Virus record (IMG/VR): IMGVR_UViG_3300008448_000497
Location: 1 to 27,219 of that record
Length of the DNA stretch: 27,219 bases
From: a virus
Reading direction: 5' to 3' (one strand)
Part shown: piece by piece, positions 1-25,238 of the stretch
Layout: each line of letters opens with the position of its first letter
How positions within the stretch are numbered: position 1 is the stretch's first letter
Notes under the pieces: generated by a model
Database searches by the model: none
Told to the model about the DNA's origin: nothing
What the model saw: the letters and a program-made list of their open reading frames with translations, nothing else
Program-made: the position numbers and the translations under genes

Positions 1-891
1 AAAGATCTTATTAAGATACTGCAATGGAACGAGCAGAATGATATTCGACTATTCCGTATTGGTAGCGAGTTATTTCCGCGTTGGAATCATTACCGTCTAG
101 AAGATTTACCAGGTATTGACGAGATTGCTCAGCATCTCCGTGCAGCAGGTGATTTTGCTCGAGCCCATGGGCATCGTGTTACTACACACCCTGGTCCGTT
201 CCATATTCTAGGCAGTCCCGATGCTGTGGTTGTAGATAATTCTATCGTAGGTCTAGAACGACATAGTGAGATGTTTGACCTCATGGGCTTTGCTCCTAGT
301 TTCGAAAACAAGATCAATATTCATGTTGGTGCTACTTACAATGATAAGCCTGGTACTATTGCTCGTTGGTTGCAAAACTATGATCGTCTGTCTGATTCAC
401 TCAAGGCTCGTCTCGTCATAGAAAATGATGACAAGGCTTCTATGTATTCGGTTCGTGATTTATATGAAATGCTTCATAGCGAGATTGCAATTCCGATCAC
501 GTTTGACTATTGGCATCACACATTCAATACCGGTGACTTATCCGAGCAAGAAGCATTCTTCATGGCTCGTGAGACTTGGCAACGTCATGGTGTTACTCAA
601 TGCACTCATTACTCAGAATCTCGCCGTCGCGAACAGCAACTTCTTATCGAGCGTATGTTTGATCATCATGGTATCTCCATGAAGAATATTGCACAATGGC
701 CGACATTTCACAAGCAATACAAAGAATTTACCAAGATCAAAGAGCAAGCTCATGCCGACTTTATTACACAGCTTCCTAATACTTATGGTGTTGATGATCT
801 AGATATAGTAGTAGAAGCTAAGGCTAAAGAACAGGCTCTAATGCAAATTGGTGTAGAATGTTGCCAACAGCCGTTGTTTTTAGTAGATTGA
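1..891 (+). CDS. uvsE: UV-damage endonuclease, UvdE/UvsE family (5' end outside window)
   Basis: The frame is open from base 1 to the TGA at 889-891, so the gene starts upstream and 296 residues are visible. UvdE enzymes are TIM-barrel, metal-dependent endonucleases that nick DNA 5' of UV photoproducts and start an alternative excision repair. Family hallmarks are visible in order: RIGSELFPRWNHY near residue 20, a HPG-F---GSP segment, LERHSEMFDLMGF, INIHVGATYNDK, the RLVIENDDK block, and ITFDYWHHTF, whose His and Asp residues fit the metal site. The C-terminal 90 residues after the barrel are rich in Gln, Lys and Glu. Composition is odd: five sampled lines give about 48% GC against about 32% in other genes, which suggests later acquisition. 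A copy of the intergenic motif begins inside its stop codon. The family call is firm; the full length is unknown. Confidence 0.93.
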   Translation, partial: KDLIKILQWNEQNDIRLFRIGSELFPRWNHYRLEDLPGIDEIAQHLRAAGDFARAHGHRVTTHPGPFHILGSPDAVVVDNSIVGLERHSEMFDLMGFAPSFENKINIHVGATYNDKPGTIARWLQNYDRLSDSLKARLVIENDDKASMYSVRDLYEMLHSEIAIPITFDYWHHTFNTGDLSEQEAFFMARETWQRHGVTQCTHYSESRRREQQLLIERMFDHHGISMKNIAQWPTFHKQYKEFTKIKEQAHADFITQLPNTYGVDDLDIVVEAKAKEQALMQIGVECCQQPLFLVD

Positions 892-904
892 TATTTATAT
901 TAAA
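890..904 (+). promoter_or_regulatory. Intergenic motif copy A (candidate late promoter)
   Basis: The sequence GATATTTATATTAAA overlaps the TGA of the UV endonuclease and lies 23 nt before the ATG at 928. It matches copy B exactly and four further intergenic copies closely. The octamer TATTTATA within it is the reverse complement of the T4 late promoter core. A promoter role is inferred from position and recurrence. Confidence 0.5.
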
Positions 905-927
905 TAGTAATTAAATTTTATAATGTT

Positions 928-1116
928 ATGGCATCAGAATACAAATTCAAGTACAAAGCAAAAATTACAGATGATATTGCAGACGCACACGAAATCATCA
1001 GAAATGTTGGTCGCACAATTCAAGAAGGAAAAACAGATGTAACGTCTGCTCTTCACAATCTAGCAGAGGCACTTAAAAAGTTAGAATCTGCAAAGTATTA
1101 TATCGATCGCGAATAA
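928..1116 (+). CDS. Small helical hypothetical protein (62 aa)
   Basis: I do not recognise this 62-residue protein. It is charged and predicted to be almost all helix from about residue 14: a heptad-like pattern of Ile, Val, Leu and Ala runs through the second half (ALHNLAEALKKLESA), so a helical hairpin or small coiled coil is likely. It has no membrane segment and no cysteine. The ATG at 928 is preferred over an out-of-frame ATG at 923. No clear Shine-Dalgarno sequence is present; the leader is A/T-rich and follows motif copy A by 23 nt, so the gene may have its own late transcript. A zinc-ribbon gene follows 15 nt downstream. Coding status is supported by packing and by low-GC codon use like that of its downstream neighbours. 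Confidence 0.7.
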   Translation: MASEYKFKYKAKITDDIADAHEIIRNVGRTIQEGKTDVTSALHNLAEALKKLESAKYYIDRE

Positions 1117-1131
1117 TCAAAATCACACATA

Positions 1132-1296
1132 ATGGCAAAATCAAAAAAATCTATTCCGGCAAAGGGATATAAACGACTACAGTGCAAATACTGTGATCAT
1201 GTATCGGAACGTGTAGATGTAAATGCTGACGCAATTACATGTTATAAATGCGTAACCAAATTATTAAATGGTGAAGTTTTGGAAATACGAAAGTAA
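1132..1296 (+). CDS. Small zinc-ribbon protein (54 aa)
   Basis: This 54-residue frame starts at ATG 1132 and ends at TAA 1294-1296. It carries two CxxC pairs, C18-KY-C21 and C37-YK-C40, separated by 15 residues, the layout of a four-cysteine zinc ribbon. The first 14 residues are basic (MAKSKKSIPAKGYK), which would suit nucleic-acid contact. Such mini-ribbons are common in T4-like phages and usually have no assigned function; DNA, RNA or protein binding are all possible. It sits between the small helical gene (15-nt gap) and the HD hydrolase (22-nt gap), all in one direction. No Shine-Dalgarno sequence is evident. The metal-site layout supports a real gene. Confidence 0.75.
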   Translation: MAKSKKSIPAKGYKRLQCKYCDHVSERVDVNADAITCYKCVTKLLNGEVLEIRK

Positions 1297-1318
1297 TCTT
1301 CTATTATTTTAATAAACT

Positions 1319-2095
1319 ATGTTAGAAGCAGAAAAAATTAAATCAAATTGGGAACTGTTTAGACGAGAAGTAGATACTTGGTTTCCTACCCGTAAAGATG
1401 CATTGCATAAAATGTATGATGTGTTCGAAGATCGTATGGTACTTATGCCAGCATCTTCAATGGCTCATTTTCACAATGCATTTGCTGGTGGTTATGTAGA
1501 TCACATACTTCGCGTAATGGAGTGCACAAGAAATTTATATACCACGTGGCAATCATCTGGTGCTGATATGTCTGGTTATACCATGGAAGAATTGATGTTT
1601 GCAGCAATGCATCATGATTTAGGTAAAGTAGGGTTTCCGGGAGATGGCAACGAAGTATATCAAGTAGAAACGTCGGATTGGCATCGCAAGAACCAAAACA
1701 AGATGTATAAGCACAATGAAAATATTCCATTCACAATGGTGCCAGATTTATCAATTTGGTTGCTACAAGAACATGATATTAAAATGTCATGGACAGAATA
1801 TCAGGCAATTAAGATTCATGATGGAATGTATGATGATGCAAATAAACCGTATTATGTAGCTCGGTCAGCTCAGGCAAAATTAAAAACTAATATGCCTATT
1901 CTGTTGCATCATGCCGATCATATGGCAGCTCAAATTGAATTTGAACGTTGGAGAAATAATCAAAACACATCGCCGAAGCCAGTAGCAGAAAAAGGCAAAA
2001 TTCAAAAAAGTAATGGTTTAAAAAATCTTGCAGAAAATAATCCGGATGTAGAACGCACATTAACGGATATTTTTAGTGCATTTAACCAGGATTAA
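1319..2095 (+). CDS. HD-domain phosphohydrolase
   Basis: This 258-residue protein has the metal-binding layout of the HD superfamily, which hydrolyses phosphate esters of nucleotides or cyclic nucleotides. H62 lies in GGYVDHILRV, the H99-D100 doublet in AAMHHDLGKVG, H152 in LLQEHDI, H167 in KIHDGMY, and H198-H-A-D200 in LLHHADHMA, all in the expected order. The last 45 residues are polar, probably flexible, and end in a short helix. The substrate is unknown: dNTP control of the host pool, or degradation of a host signalling nucleotide, are both plausible for a phage enzyme. The start is the first ATG after the zinc-ribbon gene; the leader is A/T-rich with no clear Shine-Dalgarno. The stop is 2 nt before the next ATG, so it is probably co-transcribed with the genes through the sigma factor. 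Confidence 0.88.
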   Translation: MLEAEKIKSNWELFRREVDTWFPTRKDALHKMYDVFEDRMVLMPASSMAHFHNAFAGGYVDHILRVMECTRNLYTTWQSSGADMSGYTMEELMFAAMHHDLGKVGFPGDGNEVYQVETSDWHRKNQNKMYKHNENIPFTMVPDLSIWLLQEHDIKMSWTEYQAIKIHDGMYDDANKPYYVARSAQAKLKTNMPILLHHADHMAAQIEFERWRNNQNTSPKPVAEKGKIQKSNGLKNLAENNPDVERTLTDIFSAFNQD

Positions 2096-2097
2096 TC

Positions 2098-2394
2098 ATG
2101 ATTTGGGTAATAGTATTAATAGCAATTTTATTAGGCGGTTTAAGCTACACTGCATACCGTATTTGGTATCTAGCAGGTGTGGTTGCTGACGCACAGGAAT
2201 ACATTGAGGAATTAGAAGTAACAAATCGTTACATGTATTCAAAAATATCCGAATCACATGACATCATGCAAAACATCGATCGTTTAGGTGCGTTTGAAAA
2301 GGATGATGAAGCTGGCACAACCTTCCAACTTCTAACACAAGTAATAACCGAACTTAAAGAACAATTCGATGGCGAAGCGCAAGAAGAAAAGTAA
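2098..2394 (+). CDS. Small membrane-anchored protein (98 aa)
   Basis: Residues 2-20 (WVIVLIAILLGGLSYTAYR) form one clear membrane segment with no cleavage site. A helical, acidic region of about 70 residues follows and ends in EEK. This fits a small inner-membrane protein with the C-terminal part either cytoplasmic or periplasmic. I recognise no family. The ATG lies 2 nt after the HD hydrolase stop, with AGGATTAATC upstream as a Shine-Dalgarno-like element. Its end overlaps the sigma-factor start by 26 nt, so translation of the two is probably coupled. A holin-like or spanin-like role was considered, but a single N-terminal anchor with a long soluble tail in this position does not establish it. 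Confidence 0.72.
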   Translation: MIWVIVLIAILLGGLSYTAYRIWYLAGVVADAQEYIEELEVTNRYMYSKISESHDIMQNIDRLGAFEKDDEAGTTFQLLTQVITELKEQFDGEAQEEK

Positions 2395-3076
2395 TGTTTA
2401 CTTTAGCAAGATAACTGAATTAGCTATTATCGGTTATAATAAAACTGATAATTCTATACTCCGTGAAAAAATATATCGTAGATTTATTTATCCAGCATTC
2501 ATGAAACTTGTGGAAAACATGATTAACAAAGTAAAGCCAACGTACATCGATTCTACATTCTTGGATTTGCAAACGGATCTTGTTACATTCTTAACAGAAC
2601 GTTTAACTAAATTTAATCCAAATGCCGGCAAAGCATTTTCATATTACACACGAACTTCTTATAATTATCTGATAGGTGAAAATGAAAAAGCTTATAAAAA
2701 ATTAAAAGCCGATACCGAAGAATTAAATGTGGATGAAGGTCGCAATGTAATCATTGAAATGCATAATGATGAAATGCGTGAAATTCTCAAGTACTTCATG
2801 GACGAATATGTGGAATTTTGTTATGCTAATTTAAATTTTATATTTACAAATTCAACCGATATTCACGTAGCAGATTCTGTGCTTCACATATTTGAGAATC
2901 GAGCAGATATTGAAGACTTCAATAAAAAGCGATTATACATTTTAATACGCGAACGAACCGGATTAGATCCATCACAAACACCAGCTGTTACCAGAGTAGT
3001 AAAAGTACTCGAGGATCTATATAGACAATTATTTGTTGAGTATGAACGATCAAACTTCGTAAATTTGCCTTTTTGA
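2369..3076 (+). CDS. gp55-like late-transcription sigma factor
   Basis: The 235-residue protein resembles the phage late sigma factors related to T4 gp55, which replace host sigma on RNA polymerase and recognise the -10 element of late promoters. Residues about 38-115 match sigma region 2: a helical segment (REKIYRRFIYPAFMKLVENM), then LTKFNPNAGKAFSYYTRTSY (the typical KFDP-x-K-x-AF-YFT signature) and a basic helix ENEKAYKKLK. The C-terminal half is helical and less conserved, ending in the hydrophobic FVNLPF, which recalls the clamp-binding tail of gp55. T4 gp55 is 185 residues, so this one is longer. The start at 2369 overlaps the preceding gene by 26 nt and gives a basic N-terminus (MAKRKKKS). 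Its own TGA overlaps motif copy B, so it abuts its probable target sequence. Confidence 0.75.
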   Translation: MAKRKKKSNVYFSKITELAIIGYNKTDNSILREKIYRRFIYPAFMKLVENMINKVKPTYIDSTFLDLQTDLVTFLTERLTKFNPNAGKAFSYYTRTSYNYLIGENEKAYKKLKADTEELNVDEGRNVIIEMHNDEMREILKYFMDEYVEFCYANLNFIFTNSTDIHVADSVLHIFENRADIEDFNKKRLYILIRERTGLDPSQTPAVTRVVKVLEDLYRQLFVEYERSNFVNLPF

Positions 3077-3089
3077 TATTTATATTAAA
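3075..3089 (+). promoter_or_regulatory. Intergenic motif copy B (candidate late promoter)
   Basis: GATATTTATATTAAA is identical to copy A. It overlaps the sigma-factor stop codon and lies 11 nt before the ATG at 3101. It would drive the acidic helical gene and the spike/baseplate genes behind it. The promoter role is inferred. Confidence 0.5.
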
Positions 3090-3100
3090 GGATTTACGAG

Positions 3101-3535
3101 ATGGACAAAAACGATGAACTGTTTAAAGGAACTAGCTTTGCAGACTTAATGTCCGATGTTTATCACAATTCTAAAAAGAAGGATAGACAGATTAATCAGC
3201 TTATAGCTCAGTTACAGCCGTTAATTAAAAATGCATCAGATGCTACTATTATTGTTCCGCTGATCAAAGAATATCTTGATGTGGCTGTAAAAAATGATGA
3301 CCACCTAGTTAAACTAACGGCAATTGTTCAAAGATTTATTTCTACAAAACAAACTATTGCCGGAGCTGATGGATTGCTGTCTGATGAAGAAAAACAGCAA
3401 CTTTTAAAAGCGGCTGAATCTACATTATCTGCAGAATTGGAAGATGAATTGGAGAGAATTGCAGATGATGATTCTGAATTGCAACGAAAAATTTCAGATG
3501 CACATGCCAAGATCGATAAGGATGTAGATGCATAG
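3101..3535 (+). CDS. Acidic helical protein next to the baseplate genes (144 aa)
   Basis: I do not recognise a family. The 144 residues look almost entirely helical. An N-terminal part with KKKDRQINQLIAQLQPLI could be a coiled coil, and the C-terminal third is strongly acidic with repeated Glu/Asp-Leu (SAELEDELERIADDD). There is no membrane segment and no cysteine. The ATG lies 11 nt after motif copy B, with AAAGGATTTACGAG upstream, where AAAGGA may act as a weak ribosome site. The last 8 nt overlap the start of the spike gene, suggesting translational coupling and a role in building or chaperoning the central spike or hub. That role is inferred only from position. Confidence 0.7.
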   Translation: MDKNDELFKGTSFADLMSDVYHNSKKKDRQINQLIAQLQPLIKNASDATIIVPLIKEYLDVAVKNDDHLVKLTAIVQRFISTKQTIAGADGLLSDEEKQQLLKAAESTLSAELEDELERIADDDSELQRKISDAHAKIDKDVDA

Positions 3536-4574: not shown

Positions 4575-4583
4575 GGATAAGTT

Positions 4584-5426
4584 ATGAGTTCAATAGTTCC
4601 ACCGTTAGACCGTATACCAAAACTACCAGGTAAAGCAGTTTCTGAAATTGTGAAGAAATTAAATACACAAACAGATCGATTGCTCGAAACCGTATCAAAA
4701 ACAGTTCAGGATTCTACTAAATTACCTGACAATGTGAAATGTGATGACCCACGTGTAACACAATTAAAACAGCAACTTGCTGACATACAAACTCAAATCA
4801 ATGGAATACGAGATGCAGTGCCAGCAATACAACAAACTGCTAATTCTTTAAAAGGAGTTGTTTCGTCAGCAGTAGCCATAAAGAATACATTGGCAATAGC
4901 ACAACTTTCAAATCCAGTAACAGCACCTTTGTTCATTGCACAACAATTAACATTGCTGCAAGATGCTACAATTGTTAACGCAATCGAATCACTGAATCAG
5001 TTTTCAACTATACCGGGTATGTTAACATCAAAATTAGATACTATAGTTAATCCATTAATGGCATCTATTAATAAAATTTCATCAGCCTGTAATGGTAATG
5101 TTGACAATTTGCAATTTCCAGGTCAGTCGGTATCAAGTGACATGTTATCTCAAAGTGATATTGCTGAATTAAACGATTTGGTGCCTACCGAGTTTTATAC
5201 GGAATTAAATGTTTCTGATGAAGATTTAGAAAACAGGGCATCTGCTATACAACAATTAGTAGAGCAACAAGCAAATATTTTGCAGTCACTACAAGAGGCT
5301 CCGAGCAAAGTATATCAATTCAACGGCACACCACAAAATGATTTAGGAAAAGTTGGCGATTATTATATTGATATTGATACACAAACAATATATGGGCCTA
5401 AACCTTCACAAAATTCATGGACTTAA
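4584..5426 (+). CDS. Coiled-coil tail/baseplate protein with fibre-type C-terminal motif
   Basis: The 280-residue protein starts at ATG 4584 with TTAAGGATAAGTT upstream, a good phage ribosome site. Residues about 50-100 and 220-250 are heptad-like helices (VTQLKQQLADIQTQINGIRD; QQLVEQQANILQSLQ), separated by a hydrophobic, Ala/Leu-rich middle (about 95-165) that could be helical packing. The last 35 residues contain LGKVGDYYIDIDTQTIYGPK, the G-D-YYID-x-x-x-IYGPK pattern found near the ends of phage tail-fibre and collagen-like tail proteins. It is therefore probably a virion protein of the hub or tail tip, next to the spike; an exact T4 counterpart is not evident. Its TAA overlaps motif copy C. 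Confidence 0.7.
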   Translation: MSSIVPPLDRIPKLPGKAVSEIVKKLNTQTDRLLETVSKTVQDSTKLPDNVKCDDPRVTQLKQQLADIQTQINGIRDAVPAIQQTANSLKGVVSSAVAIKNTLAIAQLSNPVTAPLFIAQQLTLLQDATIVNAIESLNQFSTIPGMLTSKLDTIVNPLMASINKISSACNGNVDNLQFPGQSVSSDMLSQSDIAELNDLVPTEFYTELNVSDEDLENRASAIQQLVEQQANILQSLQEAPSKVYQFNGTPQNDLGKVGDYYIDIDTQTIYGPKPSQNSWT

Positions 5427-5439
5427 TATTTATATAAAA
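5425..5439 (+). promoter_or_regulatory. Intergenic motif copy C (candidate late promoter)
   Basis: AATATTTATATAAAA differs from the consensus GATATTTATATTAAA at the first base and at position 12. It overlaps the TAA of the coiled-coil gene and lies 8 nt before the ATG at 5448. It would serve the wedge cluster that follows. Confidence 0.45.
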
Positions 5440-5447
5440 GAATATAT

Positions 5448-5951
5448 ATGGACACAAAAACATTAGTAAAAGCACTTAAAATGGCTGTACGTGAGGTTAT
5501 AAAAGAGGAATTAACTGAAATTCTTCGTGAAGGGTTACAATCTACTATTAATGAAATGACTCAGCCAAAAAAAACAGTGAAGACTGAAACAGTTCGAGTT
5601 GCACAGAAAACGGCAACACCATCAGCAAAAAGATCTAAGGTTCAATTTGCCGATAATAAATGGGCATCTATTTTAAATCAAACGGATGCATTAATTGAAC
5701 AACAACCAGGTGCAATGAATAGTTTTGCTGAATTAATGAATGAAGAAGTTGATACCATTCAATTTAGTTCTACAGATGCACAAGGATTTGGAATGATGCG
5801 TCAAACGGCACTAACACCAGCTGCACCCAAAACAATGGAAGATCCAGAAACCGGAAAAACATTTAATGTAGCTCCAGAAGTTGCTCAAGCAATGACACGC
5901 GATTATTCAGCTTTAATGAAAGCAATTGACAAGAAAAAGGGTAATATATAA
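5448..5951 (+). CDS. Helical hypothetical protein before gp25 (167 aa)
   Basis: The first 37 residues form an amphipathic helix (ALKMAVREVIKEELTEILRE), followed by a basic low-complexity linker (about 38-65: KKTVKTETVRVAQKTATPSAKRSK). A more ordered C-terminal half includes NKWASILNQTDALIEQQPGAM and a P-ETGKTFNVAPEVAQAMTRDY segment. Similar helix-linker proteins commonly precede gp25 in environmental T4-like phages, but I know no function for them. Membrane segments and cysteines are absent. The ATG follows motif copy C by 8 nt (AAAAGAATATATATG), and the stop abuts the gp25 start exactly (5951/5952). A role in baseplate wedge assembly or as a minor virion protein is inferred only from position. 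Confidence 0.65.
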   Translation: MDTKTLVKALKMAVREVIKEELTEILREGLQSTINEMTQPKKTVKTETVRVAQKTATPSAKRSKVQFADNKWASILNQTDALIEQQPGAMNSFAELMNEEVDTIQFSSTDAQGFGMMRQTALTPAAPKTMEDPETGKTFNVAPEVAQAMTRDYSALMKAIDKKKGNI

Positions 5952-6401: not shown

Positions 6402-6413
6402 ATATAGGATAAC

Positions 6414-8294
6414 ATGGAAACAAAAAAAGATGTATCATATTTAGGAAAAGATTTTGGTAATTTTCGAAACAACTTAATCGAATTTACCAAACAGTATTTT
6501 CCACAAACATACACCGATTTCAATGAAGCATCGCCGGGTATGCTATTTATAGAACTAGCAGCATATGTTGGGGATGTACTTTCTTTTTATACTGATGTTA
6601 ACTTGAAAGAATCATTGTTAGATCAGGCATCAGAACGAGGCAATGTTTTTGATTTAGCAAGGTCACTAGGATATATACCAAATAATGCAGTTCCTGCATA
6701 CACCACACTCAATGTTTATCAATTAATTCCATCTATTGGTACGGGTGCTAATGTTATGCCAGATTATAACTATGCACTTTCTATTAAACCCGGGTTCCGT
6801 ATAAAACAAGAAGGTGGTCCGGCAATATTTAGAACATTGGATTCGGTTGATTTTACGTTTTCATCATCGTTTGATCCGACTGAGGTTACCATATATGAAA
6901 CCGATGATGCTACTAACTTGCCTACATATTTTCTATTAAAGAAATCAGTGAAAGCGGTTTCCGGCCAAGTGAAAACTGCTAATTTTACATTTACATCACC
7001 GGTACCATATGATAAAGTAGTATTGCCAGACACGAATATAATTGAAATTATTTCAGTAGAAGAAAGTGATGGCGATAATTGGTATCAAGTACCATACCTA
7101 GCACAAGATACTATATTTGAAGATGTTCCTAATTTATTAGAAAACGATCCAGATTTATATGTATATAGATCACAATGTCCTAGCTTGTTGAAACTTAGAA
7201 AAACTTCAAAACGTTTTATAACAAGAATGCGAAGTGATAACAAATTGGAATTGCAATTTGGCGCTGGTGTTTCTGATAATAATGATGAAGAGATAATACC
7301 AAATCCAGATAATGTAGGAAATGGATTAGCTGGATTTCGTAGGGGTGTCGATGTCGACATAGACCCATCTAACTTTTTATATACCAGAGCTTATGGCCAA
7401 GCGCCGTCTGCTACCACATTAACAGTAACATACACTGTCGGTAATGGAATTCAAGACAACGTACCGGCATATAGTTTAACGAACATAGATTTTATTGAGT
7501 ACAATGAAAATGTAAATAGTAGCAGCAATGTAGGTATTGTTAATTTTGTTAAGACAACTGTAGCAGTTTCTAACGATGCCCCGGCAATCGGTGCAAAAAC
7601 TGCAGACACCTTAACTGATATTAAAAATAATGCAATGTCTTATTTTGCTACACAGAATCGATTAGTAACACGTGAAGACTATATTATTCGTGCATACTCG
7701 ATGCCGTCAAAATATGGAAGTGTAGCTAAAGCATACATTGTTCCAGATGATCAAATATCACAATCGGAATATACTAGCCAGCGGGTAGCAAATCCATTGG
7801 CATTAAACATGTACGTATTGGGCTATAATGCTAGCAAACAGTTAACAGCATTAAATGATGCAGTGAAAGAAAATTTAAAATCATATTTAGATTATTATCG
7901 AATACTTACTGATGCTGTAAATATTAAAGATGCATTTGTGATTAACATTGGTGTTGATTTTGAAATTTCAGTGTTGCCAAATTATAATAGCAATGAAATT
8001 TTGTTGAAATGCATTAATGCACTGAAATCAATGTTTGATATAGATAAATGGCAAATAAATCAACCGGTTATCAAATCCGATGTTATTAACACACTAGGCA
8101 ATGTTAAAGGAGTTCAGTCAGTAATTGGTGTGCAATTTTTAAACTTATATGATAGCAGTGCCGGGTATTCTGGAAATGTGTATAATTTAAATACCGCAAC
8201 AAGAAATGGTGTTATTTATCCATCATTAGATCCTAGTATATTTGAAGTTAAATATACAGATTCCGATATTAGGGGTCGTGTAGTAAATTATTAA
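6414..8294 (+). CDS. 6: Baseplate wedge protein gp6 (BaseplateJ-like)
   Basis: The 626-residue protein matches gp6, the wedge subunit whose dimers form the inner ring that holds the baseplate together; it is related to P2 gpJ. The N-terminus YLGKDFGNFRNNLIEFTKQY and FNEASPGMLFIELAAYVGDVLSFYTD are classic gp6 sequence, followed by ARSLGYIPNNAVPAY. The C-terminal half has the J-like features VTREDYIIRAYSMPSKYGSV and a ferredoxin-like region from about residue 500 (IGVDFEISVLPNY). T4 gp6 is 660 residues. The start at 6414 is preceded by ATAGGATAAC, a ribosome-site pattern repeated at other genes here. It lies 12 nt after gp25 and 9 nt before the DNRLRE-like gene, and these wedge genes are probably one transcription unit. 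Confidence 0.92.
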   Translation: METKKDVSYLGKDFGNFRNNLIEFTKQYFPQTYTDFNEASPGMLFIELAAYVGDVLSFYTDVNLKESLLDQASERGNVFDLARSLGYIPNNAVPAYTTLNVYQLIPSIGTGANVMPDYNYALSIKPGFRIKQEGGPAIFRTLDSVDFTFSSSFDPTEVTIYETDDATNLPTYFLLKKSVKAVSGQVKTANFTFTSPVPYDKVVLPDTNIIEIISVEESDGDNWYQVPYLAQDTIFEDVPNLLENDPDLYVYRSQCPSLLKLRKTSKRFITRMRSDNKLELQFGAGVSDNNDEEIIPNPDNVGNGLAGFRRGVDVDIDPSNFLYTRAYGQAPSATTLTVTYTVGNGIQDNVPAYSLTNIDFIEYNENVNSSSNVGIVNFVKTTVAVSNDAPAIGAKTADTLTDIKNNAMSYFATQNRLVTREDYIIRAYSMPSKYGSVAKAYIVPDDQISQSEYTSQRVANPLALNMYVLGYNASKQLTALNDAVKENLKSYLDYYRILTDAVNIKDAFVINIGVDFEISVLPNYNSNEILLKCINALKSMFDIDKWQINQPVIKSDVINTLGNVKGVQSVIGVQFLNLYDSSAGYSGNVYNLNTATRNGVIYPSLDPSIFEVKYTDSDIRGRVVNY

Positions 8295-8303
8295 GGATAA
8301 TGC

Positions 8304-9422
8304 ATGTTTAAAATATTTTATGCTCAAAAAGATGCCACTTTATATCAATCAAATCCGACATATAATACCGGGATAGATGAAATATTGGAAATTGGTAAAC
8401 GATTAGATACTGATGGTGAAACACTGTTAAAGTCTAGATCGGTTATAAAATTTGATATGGCTGAAATTTCAGCATCATTGTCAAAATACAGCAAAACCGT
8501 AAATGATTGCAAATTCGTGTTGCAGTTATATACATCTCATGCAAAAAATCTACCTTCAGATTATTCGGTATATGCAAAGCTAGTTGGACAGGATTGGATT
8601 AACGGAACTGGTTTTGAATCCGGTGTGACTACTGATGGTGTTTGTTGGAATTATCCTATATCCGGAAGTTCATGGTATTCCAGCAGTCAAAACATACAAA
8701 TTGGCAGTAGCACATTGTATGTATCAGGCTCTGGTGCTGGTGCTAGTTTCATGTACCAATCTGCATCCGGTGGTAGCAGTTCCGGCCTAGTGACATCTGA
8801 ATCATTTTCGTATAGACCAACTGATATTAACATGGATGTTACAAATGCGGTTAAAGTTTGGTTGAGTGGTAGTGGTGGGGCTAGTATTCCAAATTATGGA
8901 TTTTTGCTTCAATTTGCTGATTCAGACGAAACGAATAATGCGGTAGCCGGGTATGTTAGATTCTTTTCTCGCGAAACACATACTATATATGTGCCTAGAA
9001 TCGTGATGTACTGGGATAACCGCACTTTTACAACAGGATCGCTAACTTCTGTTAATACTGACTCATATGTAACATATACTAGTGTTAAACCAACGTATAA
9101 AGACACGGAAATTGCAAAGATTCGTATATATGGTCGCGATAGATTTCCACAAAAATCACCTACTAATCTATTTCCGGTACAAACCGTAAAATATTTGCCA
9201 CAGACAACTTACTACACTGTATTAGATGCCGCTACGGATGAGACTATAATTCCGTATGACGATATTTATACTAAAATAAGCTGCGATTCTACTAGCAATT
9301 TTATTTACTTAGATCTAAATGGTTTTATGCCAGAACGGTATTATCGTTTAGAATTAAAAGTAGTTAATGGAATTGAAGAACAGTACATCACAGATCAGAT
9401 TTATTTTAAAGTAGTTAGATAA
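8304..9422 (+). CDS. Virion structural protein with DNRLRE-like beta domain
   Basis: Residues 1 to about 260 of this 372-residue protein fit the DNRLRE/CBM96-type beta sandwich. KDATLYQSNPTYNTGIDEIL stands at the N-terminus, then a SRSVIKFDMAEI strand, DWINGTGF, a Gly/Ser-rich loop (about 110-165), NMDVTNAVKVWLSG, and YVRFFSRETHTIYVPRIV. The remaining 100 residues look like fibronectin-type beta strands ending in ITDQIYFKVV. In cellular proteins this domain binds sugars; in a phage baseplate it may serve structure or receptor contact. There is no close T4 counterpart. The start at 8304 follows AAGGATAATGC, and the stop shares one base with the next start (TAATG), so the two products are likely made in equal amounts. 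Confidence 0.75.
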   Translation: MFKIFYAQKDATLYQSNPTYNTGIDEILEIGKRLDTDGETLLKSRSVIKFDMAEISASLSKYSKTVNDCKFVLQLYTSHAKNLPSDYSVYAKLVGQDWINGTGFESGVTTDGVCWNYPISGSSWYSSSQNIQIGSSTLYVSGSGAGASFMYQSASGGSSSGLVTSESFSYRPTDINMDVTNAVKVWLSGSGGASIPNYGFLLQFADSDETNNAVAGYVRFFSRETHTIYVPRIVMYWDNRTFTTGSLTSVNTDSYVTYTSVKPTYKDTEIAKIRIYGRDRFPQKSPTNLFPVQTVKYLPQTTYYTVLDAATDETIIPYDDIYTKISCDSTSNFIYLDLNGFMPERYYRLELKVVNGIEEQYITDQIYFKVVR

Positions 9423-10405: not shown

Positions 10406-10408
10406 TGC

Positions 10409-13998: not shown

Positions 13999-14013
13999 GA
14001 TATTTATTTTAAA
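13999..14013 (+). promoter_or_regulatory. Intergenic motif copy D (candidate late promoter)
   Basis: GATATTTATTTTAAA, one base from the consensus, lies in the 41-nt gap after the large baseplate gene and 12 nt before the ATG at 14026. The bases after it (TAGGAATAAAAC) supply a weak ribosome site. It probably opens a separate transcription unit for the next virion proteins. Confidence 0.5.
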
Positions 14014-14025
14014 TAGGAATAAAAC

Positions 14026-14682: not shown

Positions 14683-14714
14683 TAATCACTGCTAGTTAAT
14701 AAAAAGAAATATAT

Positions 14715-15986: not shown

Positions 15987-16005
15987 AATAACACACTGAT
16001 TTAAG

Positions 16006-16041
16006 CCCTGTTATATTTATTATAAATGTAGCAGGGTTTTT
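16006..16041 (+). terminator. Rho-independent terminator with motif-like stem
   Basis: Bases 16006-16036 fold into a 14-bp stem, CCCTGTTATATTTA against TAAATGTAGCAGGG with two G-T pairs, closing a 3-nt loop (TTA). Five T residues follow at 16037-16041. This is a textbook intrinsic terminator for + strand transcription, 20 nt after the stop of the upstream structural gene and 6 nt before the next ATG. The left arm and loop contain TATATTTATTATAAAT, similar to the intergenic motif, so the element may combine termination with re-initiation for the next gene. Confidence 0.85.
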
Positions 16042-16047
16042 ACTATC

Positions 16048-18164: not shown

Positions 18165-18166
18165 CG

Positions 18167-18180
18167 GATATTTATATAAA
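18167..18180 (+). promoter_or_regulatory. Intergenic motif copy E, directly before an ATG
   Basis: GATATTTATATAAA lies 2 nt after the kinase-like stop codon and directly abuts the ATG at 18181. If it acts as a -10 element like the other copies, transcription would start at or just inside the start codon, giving a leaderless or nearly leaderless message. Confidence 0.45.
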
Positions 18181-19554
18181 ATGACAGAATTAGACAAAAT
18201 AATATATCGAACTTTATTTGAACAGCGATCAGGTAAATTGAAAACGGTGCGTGTACCCGATGAACCAATTCCATTAGAAGTACCGGATCGTATACCTGAT
18301 GTTCGCCGAAATATTTTAAAACCAGCAAACCGTACTGGGTTACAGATTGGACAGCAACATGGTACTGTGTTGGATGGTTGGTCTGTTTTTACCGTTATGC
18401 TTATTGCATCGAGAGCTGGAAAAGAAGATGTAGCAAAACTAGATACCGCCTTCTCCGCTGCGGCCGCGATTCTTGATTTAGCTCGAGAAAAAGGTAATAC
18501 ACATTATGGTCAAGGAGGCTATTTTGATAAAACGGAATCGGATGGTATTGCTAAATACATGTATATTGTAGGATCTGATGTATCTAAATTTAAACGTGTA
18601 TTTAAACACAATGTTTGGATTTGCAATTTTCATCAATTATTTACATTATCGAAAAAACTCAATGAAATCGAGCCATTAACATATTATGAAAATATTGAAT
18701 CAACATACGGTAAATTCAACGTAGGAAACATCCCAGTATATACGTTCGAATCTGTTAGCAATTGGTTTAAAGCTTTACAATCTAGATTGCAATCATTAAC
18801 ATCAGACCAAAAGCAATCATTACGGTCTTTGTTGAAACCGAAAAATTCGGCAGTATTAATACCAGAATTGCAATATTTAAATCAAGACTATAATCCTACA
18901 GAAAATCCGTTACAATCAAAAACCGTAACTATAACAGATACAGACAACTACGGATATAGAGGATCTTTCCGTGGTGATGCTAAATTAGATTATGATGCAA
19001 ATGGAAATCAAATATTGATACCAATAAAGGGAACAATAAATGTTCGCAGATTAGAGGACAAGGAGGGTGGAATATTTACTGGTGATTTTAAAAATGGCGC
19101 ACCATCAACGGGGGAAGTAGATTGGACAGATGGAAGTACGCAGTCTATAAAACCAGGCGATACTAAAATTTATACAGATAAAAATGGCGATCGAGGTTTT
19201 ACTTTTACAACAAGTATAAATAATAATGAAATACCATTACAATATACATGGGAAGATTCCGAAGATATAATTCGGTTAATACAAACGGATATTAAAGCAA
19301 TGCTTAATAATAATCCAGAATGGGTACAAAGTTTCTCAGGAATTGAAGAGTATCCATCAATACAAGCATTTGATGTTACCGGTATATGGGATATACCTAC
19401 TGAGACTCTATCATGGATATTAAACGTACAATTTTTAGGAGACGATGCAATGCTACCAGATGGTAAAACTGTTAATAACGATGCGTTATTTATTATTCCT
19501 AAAACTACGCGTGATGCTATAATTAAATATAAAACTGAAAAAATACCATTATAA
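18181..19554 (+). CDS. Unknown accessory protein with MORN-like patch (457 aa)
   Basis: No family is recognised over the full length. The start is taken as ATG 18181 (MTELDKIIYRTLFEQ); a TTG at 18154 would add nine residues overlapping the upstream gene and the motif. Residues 61-160 hold a mixed region with THYGQGGYFDKTESDGIAKY, and 185-230 is a helical segment. Residues about 257-320 resemble one good and one degenerate MORN repeat (YRGSFRGDAKLDYDANGNQ, then GGIFTGDFKNG followed by TGEVDWTDGST). The C-terminal 120 residues include QYTWEDSEDIIRLIQTDIKA and a GIWDIPTETLSWILNVQFLG segment. MORN repeats often mediate lipid or protein contact. The N-terminus ends in LFE, like the neighbours' LxE. 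It lies between a kinase-like gene and a wall peptidase, with 1 nt before the latter. Confidence 0.6.
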   Translation: MTELDKIIYRTLFEQRSGKLKTVRVPDEPIPLEVPDRIPDVRRNILKPANRTGLQIGQQHGTVLDGWSVFTVMLIASRAGKEDVAKLDTAFSAAAAILDLAREKGNTHYGQGGYFDKTESDGIAKYMYIVGSDVSKFKRVFKHNVWICNFHQLFTLSKKLNEIEPLTYYENIESTYGKFNVGNIPVYTFESVSNWFKALQSRLQSLTSDQKQSLRSLLKPKNSAVLIPELQYLNQDYNPTENPLQSKTVTITDTDNYGYRGSFRGDAKLDYDANGNQILIPIKGTINVRRLEDKEGGIFTGDFKNGAPSTGEVDWTDGSTQSIKPGDTKIYTDKNGDRGFTFTTSINNNEIPLQYTWEDSEDIIRLIQTDIKAMLNNNPEWVQSFSGIEEYPSIQAFDVTGIWDIPTETLSWILNVQFLGDDAMLPDGKTVNNDALFIIPKTTRDAIIKYKTEKIPL

Positions 19555-19555
19555 C

Positions 19556-20455
19556 ATGAAAATAAATTTATCTGAACAATCATTAATGGATCGTATACGA
19601 AAAGGAGAAATTAAACCCGCACCGGCTCCGACTCCTGTTACTACACCAGAAAAAAAGAAGGATGATACTACACAACCAGTGCCTAATATAAAATTAGCAA
19701 CGAAGTTGACAAAAGAAGCAAAATTCTGTAAAGACCATATTTTATCAATTCCGAAGTTTTCAAAAAATAAATGGACTACAATCGGTACGATATCTTATAG
19801 AAAAGTTGCAGGAACTGATGAGTGGTCAGAACATGCAAAAGGCAATGCTATCGATTGGCATGCATCACCTGCAGACATGCATCAATTAGCAATATATCTT
19901 GTTAACAATTTCAATATGTTACATGTACAAAATGTTATATATAACAGACAAATTTGGAATTATCCGCGCGGATGGCATCCGTATAACGGGAAAGATCCAC
20001 ATACATCCCATGTACATGTAGATTTTACACCGACAACTAGAAAAATTAATACAGATACTAGTATTGATAGTCAGCAAGAAATACACAAAGTTATTGCAAC
20101 ATTTAAAAATGAGTTATATGATATGTTGGTATTAAATCCTGGAAACTATTTTAGTGAATTCCGAGGTTGGATATTAGGCGATGATGAAGAAAAGGCTTTT
20201 AAATATTATTGGTCTGCGATTAATAAACGAGTAAAAGATTTAAAAATTAATACATTGTATAATAGCAAAAATATATCTAAATGGGATAAGTATAACATTA
20301 ATAATTTAAATTCAGTAATTAACAAAATAGGTAAATTTTTACGAGAAGAACATATTGGTAATTCGTATACTATTCCAATTATATGGAATTACCCAAATCC
20401 TAAAACAGGAAAATGGCAACAACGTAAAATTACATTTAAATGGGACTATTTATAA
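19556..20455 (+). CDS. VanY/M15-like peptidoglycan peptidase
   Basis: Residues about 50-160 match the D-Ala-D-Ala carboxypeptidase-like (VanY/M15-type) zinc peptidases. SEHAKGNAIDWHAS supplies H93 and D100, and PHTSHVHVDFTP supplies H152/H154 and D156 as the metal and catalytic set. Such enzymes cut peptide stems of the bacterial wall, so a lysis or entry role is likely. Residues 1-45 are a basic, Pro/Thr-rich linker after a short NLSEQ peptide; no signal peptide or membrane segment is present. The C-terminal 135 residues are a separate, lysine-rich helical and beta region (FRGWILGDDEEKAFKYYWSA) that could bind wall polymer. The ATG is 1 nt after the previous stop. A virion-borne role is possible because the spike here lacks a lysozyme domain; a plain endolysin is equally possible. 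Confidence 0.82.
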   Translation: MKINLSEQSLMDRIRKGEIKPAPAPTPVTTPEKKKDDTTQPVPNIKLATKLTKEAKFCKDHILSIPKFSKNKWTTIGTISYRKVAGTDEWSEHAKGNAIDWHASPADMHQLAIYLVNNFNMLHVQNVIYNRQIWNYPRGWHPYNGKDPHTSHVHVDFTPTTRKINTDTSIDSQQEIHKVIATFKNELYDMLVLNPGNYFSEFRGWILGDDEEKAFKYYWSAINKRVKDLKINTLYNSKNISKWDKYNINNLNSVINKIGKFLREEHIGNSYTIPIIWNYPNPKTGKWQQRKITFKWDYL

Positions 20456-20471
20456 TATAGACAAACGAGTT

Positions 20472-20954
20472 ATGAGAAAAAATCATTATCACAGTTCTGG
20501 AAATTCAAAACGGGCAGCTGCTTTAAAATATGGATATAAATCCGGATTAGAACATACAGTTGCTGATCAAATAAAAACTGCAGAATATCCTTTGAAATAT
20601 GAAACAGAAACATTAAAATATATAGTACCAGAACGTCAAGCAAAATATACTCCAGATTTTGTATTCGTTAAAAAGAATGGCGAGCTGATGTTTATAGAAA
20701 CTAAAGGACGATGGACTAGTGCTGATCGTTTAAAAATGAAACATGTTTTACAATCAAATCCTGGCATAGATATACGAATGGTATTTCAATCACCTACACA
20801 AAAAATATCTAAAGGTTCAAACACTACTTATGAAGCATATGCACTTAAACTGGGAATTAAACATGTTGCAAAAAAAGAAATACCTGCAGAATGGTTTACG
20901 GAATGTTTGCGAGATGGGGAACACGTACGTGATGTTAAAAAGTTTTTTTCATGA
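20472..20954 (+). CDS. T7 endonuclease I-like Holliday-junction resolvase
   Basis: The 160-residue protein matches the T7 gp3 (endonuclease I) family, which cleaves branched DNA such as Holliday junctions and replication intermediates (T7 enzyme 149 residues). The catalytic set is complete: E27 in KSGLEHTVADQ, D62 in KYTPDFVFV, E76 and K78 in MFIETKGRWTSADR. The downstream DIRMVFQ and GSNTTYEAYALKLGIKH blocks also fit, and the C-terminus has the IPAEWF motif. The start is ATG 20472 (MRKNHYHSSGN); a longer frame exists but would overlap the peptidase gene and add 39 residues unlike the family. The leader holds ACAAACGAGTT. It opens the DNA-metabolism block, followed by the AT-rich spacer and the primase. 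T4 itself uses the unrelated endonuclease VII (gp49) for this step. Confidence 0.92.
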   Translation: MRKNHYHSSGNSKRAAALKYGYKSGLEHTVADQIKTAEYPLKYETETLKYIVPERQAKYTPDFVFVKKNGELMFIETKGRWTSADRLKMKHVLQSNPGIDIRMVFQSPTQKISKGSNTTYEAYALKLGIKHVAKKEIPAEWFTECLRDGEHVRDVKKFFS

Positions 20955-20993
20955 TTACTTTGAAATGTGAAAAATATTTAATACATTCATATA

Positions 20994-21012
20994 AATTAAT
21001 GATATATTAATT
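20994..21012. repeat. Perfect inverted repeat, 7-bp arms, 5-nt centre
   Basis: AATTAAT and ATTAATT flank GATAT. The arms hold only A and T, so a chance origin is possible in such AT-rich sequence. Confidence 0.5.
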
Positions 21013-21083
21013 ATAATGATTGATTCAGTATTGAATTGATCGTTAGACCAGAAATGAAATGTATGTGTCTAACTAATATTATT

Positions 21084-21102
21084 AATTATTAATATAATAA
21101 TT
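21084..21102. repeat. Perfect inverted repeat, 8-bp arms, 3-nt centre
   Basis: AATTATTA and TAATAATT flank ATA. It lies 35 nt before the primase ATG and touches the candidate -35 box TTGGAG. No T-run follows, so it is not a terminator; an operator or unwinding site is conceivable. Confidence 0.5.
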
Positions 21103-21129
21103 GGAGTATTACATTTGATTTATTATATT
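21101..21129 (+). promoter_or_regulatory. Weak sigma70-like promoter candidate for primase and SbcDC
   Basis: TTGGAG and TATATT are spaced by 17 nt, four and five matches of six to the -35 and -10 consensus. The predicted start would lie just before the ATG at 21138. In this AT-rich context chance matches are common, so this is only a candidate. Confidence 0.25.
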
Positions 21130-21137
21130 AATATTAA

Positions 21138-22082
21138 ATGAAGAATATTAAATTATTACAGTTACTGGAATCAGTTTTAGGTAAAGGTAAACCTACATCT
21201 GGTAATAATATTGCATTCTTCTCTCCATTTGTTTCTCATTATAAGCCAAAATTAGAAATTGATATCGACACCAACCATAATGGTGAAAATGCATGGCATT
21301 GCTGGATATCAGATAAAAAAGGTAGATCAATTTCTAGTTTATTCAAGCAATTAAATTTACCGAAAGAACGATTTGAACAATTAAATCGAATTATCGAGCA
21401 TGGCAAGTATCGTGTTAATGATACTGTAATTAATAAAGTAGAATTATTACAATTACCTACTGATTATCGACCATTGTGGATTCCAAAAAATACACCTGAC
21501 TATCGTAATGCAATTCATTATCTTAAAAAGCGTGGTATTACTATATTCGATATACTCAAGTATAGAATCGGATATTGTGAATCGGGAGAATATTCGGGTA
21601 AAATTGTGATACCTAGCTACGACTGTGCAGGTCAGTTAAATTACTTTGTATCCCGGGCATATTATAAATCAGACACACAAAAACATAAAAATCCAAAAGT
21701 ATCGAAAGATATTATCGGATTTGATTTATTTATAAATTGGTCACAACCAATTATACTTTGTGAAGGTGCATTTGATGCAATTTCAATTAAGCGAAACGCA
21801 GTTCCTCTTTTTGGAAAAATCATACAAACAAATCTGCAGAAAAAAATCATACAAGAACGAGTTAAAGACATTTATATTTGTCTGGATGCTGATGCGTTAA
21901 AGAATGCAATAAGCATTGCTGAAAAATTCATGTCCGAAGGATTGAATGTGTATTTTGTCGAACTGCAACATGAAGATGCATCCGAATTAGGTTTTAAAAA
22001 GATTAATGAAATACTAGAAAATACTGATGTATTGACATTTGAACGGTTAATGCATTTGAAAATGGGAATGTTATGGACATAA
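21138..22082 (+). CDS. DNA primase (gp61-like/DnaG-type, Toprim)
   Basis: The 314-residue protein makes RNA primers for replication. The Toprim core is clear: E209-G210 and D213 in ILCEGAFDAISI, and D250-A-D252 in YICLDADALK, the residues that bind catalytic magnesium. The N-terminal zinc-ribbon region is recognisable by its frame (AFFSPFVSHYKPKLEIDID; WHCWISDKKGRSI), but the metal-binding CxxC pairs read S29-PF-V32 and C55-WI-S58, so three of four cysteines are gone. The middle holds the RNA-polymerase basic part: NAIHYLKKRGITIFDILKYR, IGYCESGEYSGKIVIPSYD, VSRAYY. T4 gp61 is 342 residues. The ATG is preceded by A/T-rich sequence without a clear Shine-Dalgarno. The last 10 nt overlap the SbcDC fusion gene, linking primer synthesis and recombination in one unit. 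Confidence 0.88.
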   Translation: MKNIKLLQLLESVLGKGKPTSGNNIAFFSPFVSHYKPKLEIDIDTNHNGENAWHCWISDKKGRSISSLFKQLNLPKERFEQLNRIIEHGKYRVNDTVINKVELLQLPTDYRPLWIPKNTPDYRNAIHYLKKRGITIFDILKYRIGYCESGEYSGKIVIPSYDCAGQLNYFVSRAYYKSDTQKHKNPKVSKDIIGFDLFINWSQPIILCEGAFDAISIKRNAVPLFGKIIQTNLQKKIIQERVKDIYICLDADALKNAISIAEKFMSEGLNVYFVELQHEDASELGFKKINEILENTDVLTFERLMHLKMGMLWT

Positions 22083-25000
22083 AAACAATTGATACTGGAC
22101 AAGAAATTATTAATAAAATATTTCATATTTCAGATATTCATATTCGCACACTGAAACGACATCGAGAATATCGAGAAGTATTTCAAAACATGTTTGATTA
22201 CATTGCAACACATTGCGACGGTCAAAGTTTAGCAGTTGTAACTGGAGACATTGTGCACAGCAAGTTAGATATGTCCCCAGAGCTTATTGATATGCTTGTT
22301 GAATTTTTTGATGGATTCATGATTCCGACTGTTGTGATACTTGGAAACCATGACATGAATCTAAACAACATGCACCGCACAGATGCAATTAGTCCGGTTA
22401 TCAATGTAATTAAAAATCCTAACATTATTTTCATAAAAGAAAATGGATTGTTTGAAATTGCCGGCGTAGTGTTTAATCACATGGCAGTAGATGTTGCACC
22501 AACTGAATATATACGAGCTAATCAGTTTGCAGCTGCATATAAAATTGCATTGCATCATGGTGCAGTTAATACTGCGAAAACTGATATTGGCTATCAAATA
22601 TCTAATGAACATGTAGGTATTGATTTATTCGATGGTCATGATATTGTGTTATTAGGTGATATTCATAAGCCAGCACAGTTCCTAAATGATGCTAACACTA
22701 TTGCATATCCAGGTTCGTTGATACAACAAAATCACGGAGAAGCATTAGATCACGGAATCCTGGTTTGGGATCTTCCAGGTCGCGAAGCAAAATTTGTAGA
22801 AATACAAAATGATTATGGATATGTAACATTAGAAGTTGAAGGTACCACAATTATAAAGGCACCGCATCGTATGCCGGTGAAGCCACGAGTTAGAATTAAA
22901 TTCAATGATACCTCCGCAGCAGACATGAAAAAGCTTATTGCTACTATTCGCAAAAAGTATGATGTGCAAGATATTACTATACAAAGAAGCACAGCGGGTG
23001 CCATTGCTGGAGTTACATCATCTTTTGCAATAGGTAATGTGCGAGATGTCGAGTATCAGAACACACTAATCGGCGATTTCATTTCAGTGAATTATCCACA
23101 GGCAACTGCAGAAGAAGCGGATGCAATACGACATATTAACAGAACTATAAATTCAAAATTACCTGCTGTTGAATCTGTCAGACACATGACATGGCATCCT
23201 ATTTCGTTTGAATTTGAAAACATGTTTTCATATGGAGAAGGAAATTTGGTTAATTTTGATTCATTGCAAGATGTTTGTGGGTTGTTTGCAGCAAACACAT
23301 CCGGCAAGTCTTCGTTGCTTGATGCTATAACATACACTATTTTTGATAAATGCAGCAAAACTGGAAAAGCAAATGAAGTGTTAAACAACAAAAAGAACAG
23401 CTTCCGCGGAGTATTTAAATTTGAATTAAACAATGTATGTTACACAATTATACGAGAAGGCATTAAACAAAAAAATGGACATGTTAAAGTTAATGTAGAA
23501 TTTTTCACTGAATCAGAAAATTTAAATGGTGAAGAACGAAGTGATACAAATAAAAACATACGGAAATATCTAGGAACATATGATGATTTTATTTTAACAG
23601 CCTTTTCATTGCAAGCTGATAATAATAATTTTATCGAAAAATCTCAAAGAGAACGCAAAGATCTTCTTTCGCAGTTTTTAGATATTACAGTGTTTGAACA
23701 ACTTTATCAGTTAGCAAATGAAGAAATCAAAGAAACTGCCGGCAAACTAAAAGAATACAAGAAAACGGATTTTGCTGAAATTATTGTGCATGCCGATTCG
23801 ATTATATCTAACAATCATGATAGTATAATTAAGTTGGAACAACAAGAAGATGAGTTGCAAGAACAGAGAAACCAACTTCAAGAAACCATTGTTTCATTGA
23901 TAGAAACTAAACAGCCAACAACATATACCGGCCCAGATTTTAATAAATTGCAAACGGATGAGCAAACACTTGTTAAAACAATCGAAACAATTCAAAGTGA
24001 TATTGCAACTATCGAAACTGAAATTGATACCATATACGCAAACATTAACACAATTAAATCCGTAATTAAAACTACAGATGAAACAGTAATAAACAACGGA
24101 ATACAAGTTCATAATGATTACCAAGCAAAATTAGAACACATACAAAAAGAAATTAAAACCGTACAAGGAGTAGTAGATGCGAAACAACAAAAAATCGATC
24201 ATCTTTCAGAACATGAATATGATCCAGACTGCCAATACTGTACATCTAATGTTTTCGTGCAAGATGCAATTCAAGCCAAAGCTACGATTGTTGCAGATAA
24301 ACAAATATTAAATGAAAAGCTTTCTCAAAAAGAAGAATACAATACTCAGGTCACTGAACATTCTAAATACATAAAATTAAAACAAGATTTAGATGCAGTA
24401 AAATTAAAATTGACTAACAGCAAAACATTGTTAGAAAAACGAGACTTACAATTACAGATTTTAGAAAATGATTTGCAAACACGTGAAGCTGAATTAGAAA
24501 CGTGTTTAGAACGCCAAGAATCTTTCCGAGCCAATGAGTCTGCAATCAAACATAATAAAATTGTAGATGTTGAAATTGCAAACTGCAAACAAACAATCGA
24601 AGAAATTTCAAAATCTATAAAAGAAATTACAGAAACAATTCGCGGAAAACATGGTGCTATAGAAGTTGCAAAAACAAATAAATCAAATGCAATAACACAG
24701 TTAGATGCATATCGTAAACTTGAAACCGAATATAAGGCATATGAATATTACCTAGAATCGGTTAAGCGAGATGGAGTGCCATATGAATTAATTTCGAAAG
24801 CTATTCCAAAAATTGAAACTGAAATAAACAATGTTCTAAATCAAGTTGTGGATTTTAACATGGTGCTTCAAAGTGATGGTAAAAACATTAATGGGTATAT
24901 TATTTACGATGAGGATAATTTCTGGCCATTAGAATTAACAAGTGGTATGGAACGCTTTATTTCATCTCTAGCAATTCGCATCGCACTTATCAATGTATCG

Positions 25001-25213
25001 GCACTACCTCGTCCTAATTTTATCGCAATCGATGAAGGATGGGGATCGTTAGATGCTGAACATATTTCAGCCGTTGTGAATCTATTTGATTATTTCAGAA
25101 CTAAATTTGATTTCTCAATTATTATTTCACACGTTGATAGTATGCGTGACATGGTAGACAATTTAATTGAAGTAAACAAAATAAACGGATACAGTCAGAT
25201 TTGCCACAACTGA
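22073..25213 (+). CDS. Single-chain SbcD-SbcC (Mre11-Rad50; gp47-gp46) fusion
   Basis: The 1046-residue frame joins both subunits of the recombination nuclease that T4 makes as gp47 and gp46. Residues 1 to about 365 are the Mre11/SbcD phosphoesterase: D21 and H23 (ISDIHIR), D59 (VTGDIVH), N92-H-D94 (LGNHDM), then IALHHGAV and LLGDIHKP. Residues about 372-1046 are the Rad50/SbcC ATPase: Walker A AANTSGKSS (K412, with Ala at the usual first Gly), a Q-loop-like FSLQADN, long coiled coils with a zinc hook C720-QY-C723, the signature LTSGMERF (S957), Walker B FIAIDEGWGSLD (D987, E988) and the switch IIISHVD. The complex resects DNA ends for recombination-dependent replication. An internal ATG at 23186 (residue 372) could also yield a free SbcC-like product. 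The start overlaps the primase gene by 10 nt. Confidence 0.93.
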   Translation: MDIKTIDTGQEIINKIFHISDIHIRTLKRHREYREVFQNMFDYIATHCDGQSLAVVTGDIVHSKLDMSPELIDMLVEFFDGFMIPTVVILGNHDMNLNNMHRTDAISPVINVIKNPNIIFIKENGLFEIAGVVFNHMAVDVAPTEYIRANQFAAAYKIALHHGAVNTAKTDIGYQISNEHVGIDLFDGHDIVLLGDIHKPAQFLNDANTIAYPGSLIQQNHGEALDHGILVWDLPGREAKFVEIQNDYGYVTLEVEGTTIIKAPHRMPVKPRVRIKFNDTSAADMKKLIATIRKKYDVQDITIQRSTAGAIAGVTSSFAIGNVRDVEYQNTLIGDFISVNYPQATAEEADAIRHINRTINSKLPAVESVRHMTWHPISFEFENMFSYGEGNLVNFDSLQDVCGLFAANTSGKSSLLDAITYTIFDKCSKTGKANEVLNNKKNSFRGVFKFELNNVCYTIIREGIKQKNGHVKVNVEFFTESENLNGEERSDTNKNIRKYLGTYDDFILTAFSLQADNNNFIEKSQRERKDLLSQFLDITVFEQLYQLANEEIKETAGKLKEYKKTDFAEIIVHADSIISNNHDSIIKLEQQEDELQEQRNQLQETIVSLIETKQPTTYTGPDFNKLQTDEQTLVKTIETIQSDIATIETEIDTIYANINTIKSVIKTTDETVINNGIQVHNDYQAKLEHIQKEIKTVQGVVDAKQQKIDHLSEHEYDPDCQYCTSNVFVQDAIQAKATIVADKQILNEKLSQKEEYNTQVTEHSKYIKLKQDLDAVKLKLTNSKTLLEKRDLQLQILENDLQTREAELETCLERQESFRANESAIKHNKIVDVEIANCKQTIEEISKSIKEITETIRGKHGAIEVAKTNKSNAITQLDAYRKLETEYKAYEYYLESVKRDGVPYELISKAIPKIETEINNVLNQVVDFNMVLQSDGKNINGYIIYDEDNFWPLELTSGMERFISSLAIRIALINVSALPRPNFIAIDEGWGSLDAEHISAVVNLFDYFRTKFDFSIIISHVDSMRDMVDNLIEVNKINGYSQICHN

Positions 25214-25238
25214 TATTTATATTTAAAAGAATATCAGT
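25209..25238 (+). repeat. Inverted repeat enclosing motif copy F
   Basis: Bases 25209-25217 (ACTGATATT) pair exactly with 25230-25238 (AATATCAGT) around a 12-nt loop. The repeat contains most of motif copy F and ends 2 nt before the tail-fibre ATG. No T-run follows, so it is not an intrinsic terminator; it may affect initiation by hiding or framing the start. Confidence 0.55.
25212..25226 (+). promoter_or_regulatory. Intergenic motif copy F (candidate late promoter)
   Basis: GATATTTATATTTAA overlaps the SbcDC stop codon and lies 14 nt before the ATG at 25241. It stands at the switch from DNA-metabolism genes to a structural gene, which is where a late promoter is expected. Confidence 0.5.

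Follow-up and report, generated by a model that had tools for sequence, protein, structure and literature searches.

The window analysed in this study is the whole 27,219-base record of an environmental virus contig. A short motif recurs in it, which in the sense direction reads nATATTTATA-ww-AAA (consensus A-TATTTATA-w-w-A-A-A). The first candidate late promoter core, at 890-904 on the + strand (octamer 892-899), heads an operon at 928-3076 that includes the gene of a gp55-like late sigma factor. The following cores, also on the + strand, are located at 3075-3089 (octamer 3077-3084), before ORF 3101-3535, and at 5425-5439 (octamer 5427-5434), before ORF 5448 and the baseplate genes. The core at 13999-14013, before ORF 14026, is a TATTTATT variant. 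The core at 16013-16026 (octamer 16014-16021, matrix score 17.5), before ORF 16048, is nested in an intrinsic terminator-like hairpin that is followed by a T run (16003-16039, + strand, MFE -19.9 kcal/mol, z -5.9). The last two + strand cores are found at 18167-18181 (octamer 18169-18176) and, before ORF 25241, at 25212-25226 (octamer 25214-25221). An internal candidate on the same strand lies at 9261-9275 inside the gene 8304-9422, 151 nt before ORF 9422. The copies at 890, 3075, 5425 and 25212 start inside the preceding stop codon. At 18167, the 15-mer overlaps the ATG at 18181 by one base (the A), and the octamer ends 4 nt before this ATG, leaving a short leader or none. The sequence-only reading of this DNA had listed six gap copies. 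All six were found where it placed them, four of them in a stop codon and with the ATG distances it gave, and the seventh gap copy at 16014 had been missed. At the start of the record, a UV-endonuclease UvdE-like gene (226-891) matches only the C-terminal half of its family and may begin before the record.

The window was scanned with the 15-mer, allowing at most two mismatches. Eight matches were obtained, all on the + strand, compared with 0.75 expected, and no shuffle reached eight. The exact 15-mer occurs only at 890 and 3075; the copies at 13999, 18167 and 25212 have one mismatch, and the copy at 5425 has two. With a matrix trained on relatives, the number of matches scoring 12 or more was eight on the + strand and zero on the - strand (shuffles 0.0). 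The comparison of intergenic and coding density by position matrix, which had been proposed with the six copies, placed seven of these eight matches in the gaps, which total 530 bases, and one in the 26,689 coding bases. The bare octamer TATTTATA was not enriched across the whole window (10 found, 6.75 expected). This indicates that the signal lies in the placement.

Two protein searches yielded 160 homologous loci with a protein identity of 67-83%. The nearest named phages were Microcystis phage Mel-JY01 and Flavobacterium phage immuto, whose gp6-like proteins showed 55% and 41% identity, respectively. At the 160 loci, TATTTATA was present within 60 nt of start codons 263 times in sense and 14 times in antisense, while approximately 8 were expected from the coding frequency. 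It ranked with the top signals in the sequences preceding 1215 distinct start codons, and the distance from the octamer end to the ATG was mostly about 10-30 nt (typically 12-28 nt). The junctions upstream of the window genes were examined at their orthologous positions in the relatives, and 24 of them were testable. The proposal that related phages might keep the motif at the same junctions was borne out at seven of them, with 86-100% of the relatives: before 928 (24/28 relatives), 3101 (47/48), 5448 (60/60), 14026 (45/45), 16048 (42/42), 18181 (both of the two relatives having the ortholog) and 25241 (57/57). A counterpart of the copy at 3075-3089 also precedes the immuto ortholog at 78906. 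The motif was nearly absent (0-9% of relatives) from the remaining 17 testable junctions, and the replication-type genes at 20472-25213 had no conserved motif at their orthologous junctions.

Two further features were observed in this replication region. The primase gene is preceded by a very A/T-rich gap of 183 nt (20955-21137), in which no late motif is conserved. The first 106 nt of this gap fold somewhat more stably than shuffled sequences do (z -2.1), and an early or middle promoter may be located there. The single 1046-aa frame at 22073-25213 fuses an SbcD-like phosphoesterase with an SbcC-like ATPase (gp47/gp46 type).

The orientation of the motif was determined in two close relatives, G004 and G008, with a matrix trained without these test genomes (shuffles gave 1-2.4 matches per strand). 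In G004, 40 matches were on the forward strand and 3 on the reverse strand; in G008, where most genes are on the reverse strand, the numbers were 3 and 38, respectively. Two clear + strand sites in G008 are each located 24 nt upstream of a + strand gene. One of these two sites belongs to the divergent pair 86947(-)/86999(+), at which each gene has its own sense copy before it. The motif thus faces the gene that follows it, also where two genes diverge, and we assign it to that gene. In Mel-JY01, the matrix of the relatives gave no excess; the bare octamer was found upstream of genes 15 times in sense and 4 times in antisense, with 1.6 expected. In the part of LR756508 that was examined, one motif was found against 0.2 expected, which is too few to call. 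Judged by these comparisons of sequences, the motif is real, directional and conserved.

In immuto, TATTTATA precedes 17 of the 58 virion or late genes and none of the 35 replication or metabolism genes (p = 1.6e-4), with gene categories that were set by hand from annotation and gene order. Motif sites in this phage lie upstream of the genes for terminase, portal, sheath, tube, hub, tape measure and fibres. No copy was found directly upstream of the immuto gp23 gene, and there are other late genes without a copy. Conservation, strand, position and late-gene association all support the earlier proposal of a candidate late promoter family. We believe that the motif is very probably the late promoter in this freshwater phage and its lineage, distant relatives of T4, and that it is used on the sense strand to switch on the particle-building genes.

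In 94 aligned sites, the conserved columns span only -14 to -1 (T4 numbering). A weak A/T tract is present at -28 to -25, and no column was conserved at -40 to -30, indicating no conserved -35 element. A scan for sigma-70-type promoters stayed at the chance level. A second, bipartite promoter class (TTG ... TAtcTTTA or TATATTTAGG) precedes many small ORFs in the relatives. In immuto (62-76 kb), G004 and G008, it consists of GTTGAC or GTTGG, approximately 19 nt, and then TTATCTTTA or TATATTTAGG; in immuto it is often trailed by the near-identical TATCAATAATTAAAAC. The -7 box of flavobacterial hosts is TAnnTTTG (PMC9723704). The bipartite class resembles these flavobacterial promoters and is likely an early class. 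Hybrid sites were also found, where TATTTATA shares bases with a -7 box of the host type (TTATATTTA, preceded by TTG or TTAGG). They are located at 131478, 130175, 121393, 89495 and 86947 of G008, where about 5 of 35 motif matches overlap host-type promoters, and at 153620 of G004. These hybrid sites are possibly middle-type promoters.

The late sites could themselves be sense-strand promoters for the primary or an alternative sigma factor of a Bacteroidota host, possibly with a phage activator. Promoters of the Bacteroidota primary sigma factor (TTG / TAnnTTTG) are the type that the likely hosts themselves use, and their -7 box shares the string TATTTA with the motif (PMC9723704); the five G008 sites and one G004 site also bear a TTG or TTAGG box at the host spacing. 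However, the host promoters combine a -33 box with a conserved TA...TTTG, and the late sites have neither. The first-position T of TAnnTTT is unconserved in them (40% T), the G of TTTG is absent, and no -33 box is conserved over the 94 sites. In addition, a distinct host-type class exists in the same genomes. We consider recognition by a host sigma factor unlikely, and a phage-encoded late system remains our preferred explanation for the motif.

The in-gene and bare copies mentioned in the sequence-only reading do exist, and they differ in conservation. The copy at 9261 is not background: TATTTATA was kept in 69 of 71 orthologs, and no synonymous change was found at its Ile, Tyr and Lys codons. 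The offset of 151 nt from this in-gene copy to the next gene is shared by G004 and G008. Such constraint suggests that the 9261 copy is probably an internal promoter for the gene 9422. The bare octamers at 6544 and 21727 were rejected as sites, being kept in only 1/93 and 1/86 orthologs, and the bare octamer at 20447 was kept in 3 of 6 orthologs. At 16003-16039, the upper stem and loop of the hairpin hold the promoter octamer. The hairpin is present in all 42 relatives, each folding at -16 or below. An RNA begun at the 16014 promoter would lack the 5' arm of the hairpin and would escape termination.

These sites also bear on the idea that the motif works at the RNA level, in translation initiation or mRNA processing. 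Its closeness to start codons and its A-rich 3' side, which fits the A-rich leaders of Bacteroidota, are what such an element might show. However, the distance between octamer and ATG ranges from 4 to more than 30 nt and varies among orthologs, only 7 of 24 junctions have the motif, a conserved copy lies inside a gene 151 nt upstream, and another falls in a terminator hairpin, at which the RNA from upstream would stop. An RNA element is thus very improbable.

As a late promoter element, the motif can be compared with that of T4. TATTTATA agrees with the T4 core TATAAATA at six of eight positions, and only the central dinucleotide differs (TAT-TT-ATA vs TAT-AA-ATA), with TT replacing AA at -10/-9 in T4 numbering. 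The octamer is at the same time the reverse complement of the T4 core, because TATAAATA is nearly palindromic and the centre here is TT. The sequence-only reading had concluded from this that either the phage uses an inverted consensus or the sites direct minus-strand transcription into the upstream gene. The octamers, read in sense, indicate that the inversion is only apparent and that the element lies in the same place and sense as that of T4. TATAAATA in sense was far rarer than TATTTATA before genes, and the T4 consensus itself was not matched; the same count in T4, as a positive control, gave 11 TATAAATA in sense with 0.3 expected. The reverse complement of the sites contains TATAAATA exactly, but minus-strand T4-type promoters making antisense RNA into the upstream gene are scarcely credible, since the motif faces the downstream gene even at the divergent pair, where there is no upstream gene to silence, its conservation reaches the A-rich side adjoining the start codon, it is kept at particular junctions only, and TATAAATA is not enriched in sense.

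Late promoters of T4 consist of an 8-bp TATA box without a -35 element and have an A/T-rich segment downstream (PMC2988020); the architecture without a -35 is likewise described in PMC7892883. The sense-strand late promoter proposed here is similar in having one 8-bp TATA element about one helical turn before the putative start, no -35, a downstream A/T-rich segment, late virion operons and a gp55-like protein, together with a clamp and its loader in close relatives. It differs from T4 in that the centre is TT instead of AA, an A is conserved at -14 and AAA is conserved up to -1, the sigma factor is only remotely similar to gp55, and no gp33 was found among the few candidate ORFs scanned. The late promoters of cyanophages and of Aeh1 (NATAAATA; a/gC at -13/-12) are variants of the T4 octamer (PMC2984593, PMC2988020). 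These variants alter the first positions (-13/-12 or -13) and keep the central AA, whereas the reverse is seen here. A literature search for TATTTATA with phage and promoter returned nothing relevant. To our knowledge, descriptions of the late promoter code come mainly from phages that infect gammaproteobacteria and cyanobacteria.

The putative late sigma factor (235 aa) is encoded at 2369-3076 on the + strand and was assigned by profile comparison with canonical gp55; a structure model was compared as well. In hhalign, its family aligned with canonical gp55 collinearly over 116 columns (E 4.2e-6, probability 87). The best E-value to phrog_234 was 5.6e-4, obtained for family members and not for the window protein itself. 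Single-sequence searches of the window protein against PHROG and Pfam gave no sigma family match, and the sigma profile against sequences of solved structures gave only a chance match to a ribosomal protein. The AlphaFold model had a mean pLDDT of 81.5 and a pTM of 0.46. Its comparison with T4 gp55 (7d7c_F) gave a Z score of 9.9 and an rmsd of 4.3 over 118 aa, although a Z of about 10 may mean a shared helical arrangement only. The structure matches of the model were almost all sigma factors (region 2 domains), gp55 included, and Foldseek returned no significant E-value. The earlier claim of a gp55-like late sigma factor in the window holds on the profile E-value, with remote similarity. According to the profile comparison, ORF 2369-3076 is a remote gp55-like sigma factor, and its model may share the region 2 fold of gp55. 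Its position in the operon headed by 928 suggests that it may add to its own late expression.

T4 late transcription is the textbook case in which a replication clamp activates a sigma factor, and the C-terminus of T4 gp55 carries a clamp-binding motif. In the freshwater sigma relatives, the C-terminus is formed by a nearly invariant LPF tail, which, as a guess, may be the equivalent of this motif; the sigma factors of immuto and Mel-JY01 lack the tail. G008 encodes gp45-, gp44- and gp62-like proteins, and G004 does too, as indicated by synteny and PHROG; these genes lie outside the window. No counterpart of the G008 clamp or loader was detected in immuto, which retains the motif and the gp55-like gene. 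A search with the Pfam clamp family PF02916 gave no match, and the controls were equally silent. Among the few candidate ORFs scanned, none matched a gp33 family, and no gp33 homolog was identified. Immuto also encodes family A DNA polymerases.

In analogy to T4, RNA polymerase associated with the gp55-like sigma factor (2369-3076) would read the single element without a -35, and the RNA would start approximately 6 nt past the octamer, a position with which the octamer-to-ATG distances are compatible. A gp45-type sliding clamp would activate the promoter where the phage has one, as close relatives do. Binding of the sigma factor to the element, the exact starts, the late timing in the phage and the activation by the clamp are what we infer from this analogy. 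We are fairly confident that the motif is a -10-like late promoter element on the + strand, from which a polymerase with the gp55-like sigma factor would read into the virion operons.

For the wider lineage, we lean cautiously towards the following view. In a widespread lineage of probable Bacteroidota phages, a sigma factor of the gp55 family may have shifted its core from TATAAATA to TATTTATA at -10/-9, the mirror of that of T4. This system would work without a detectable clamp in immuto, and one of its promoters would be nested in a terminator hairpin, with the same bases stopping the upstream transcript and starting the next. Such a sister system with a changed core, present in many environmental contigs, would make the sigma-to-promoter code testable by paired proteins and elements. 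Immuto, a cultured relative without a detectable clamp, is where the need for the clamp could be tested. With the motif as a guide, many unnamed genes in freshwater phages could also be placed on an operon map and in a temporal class.
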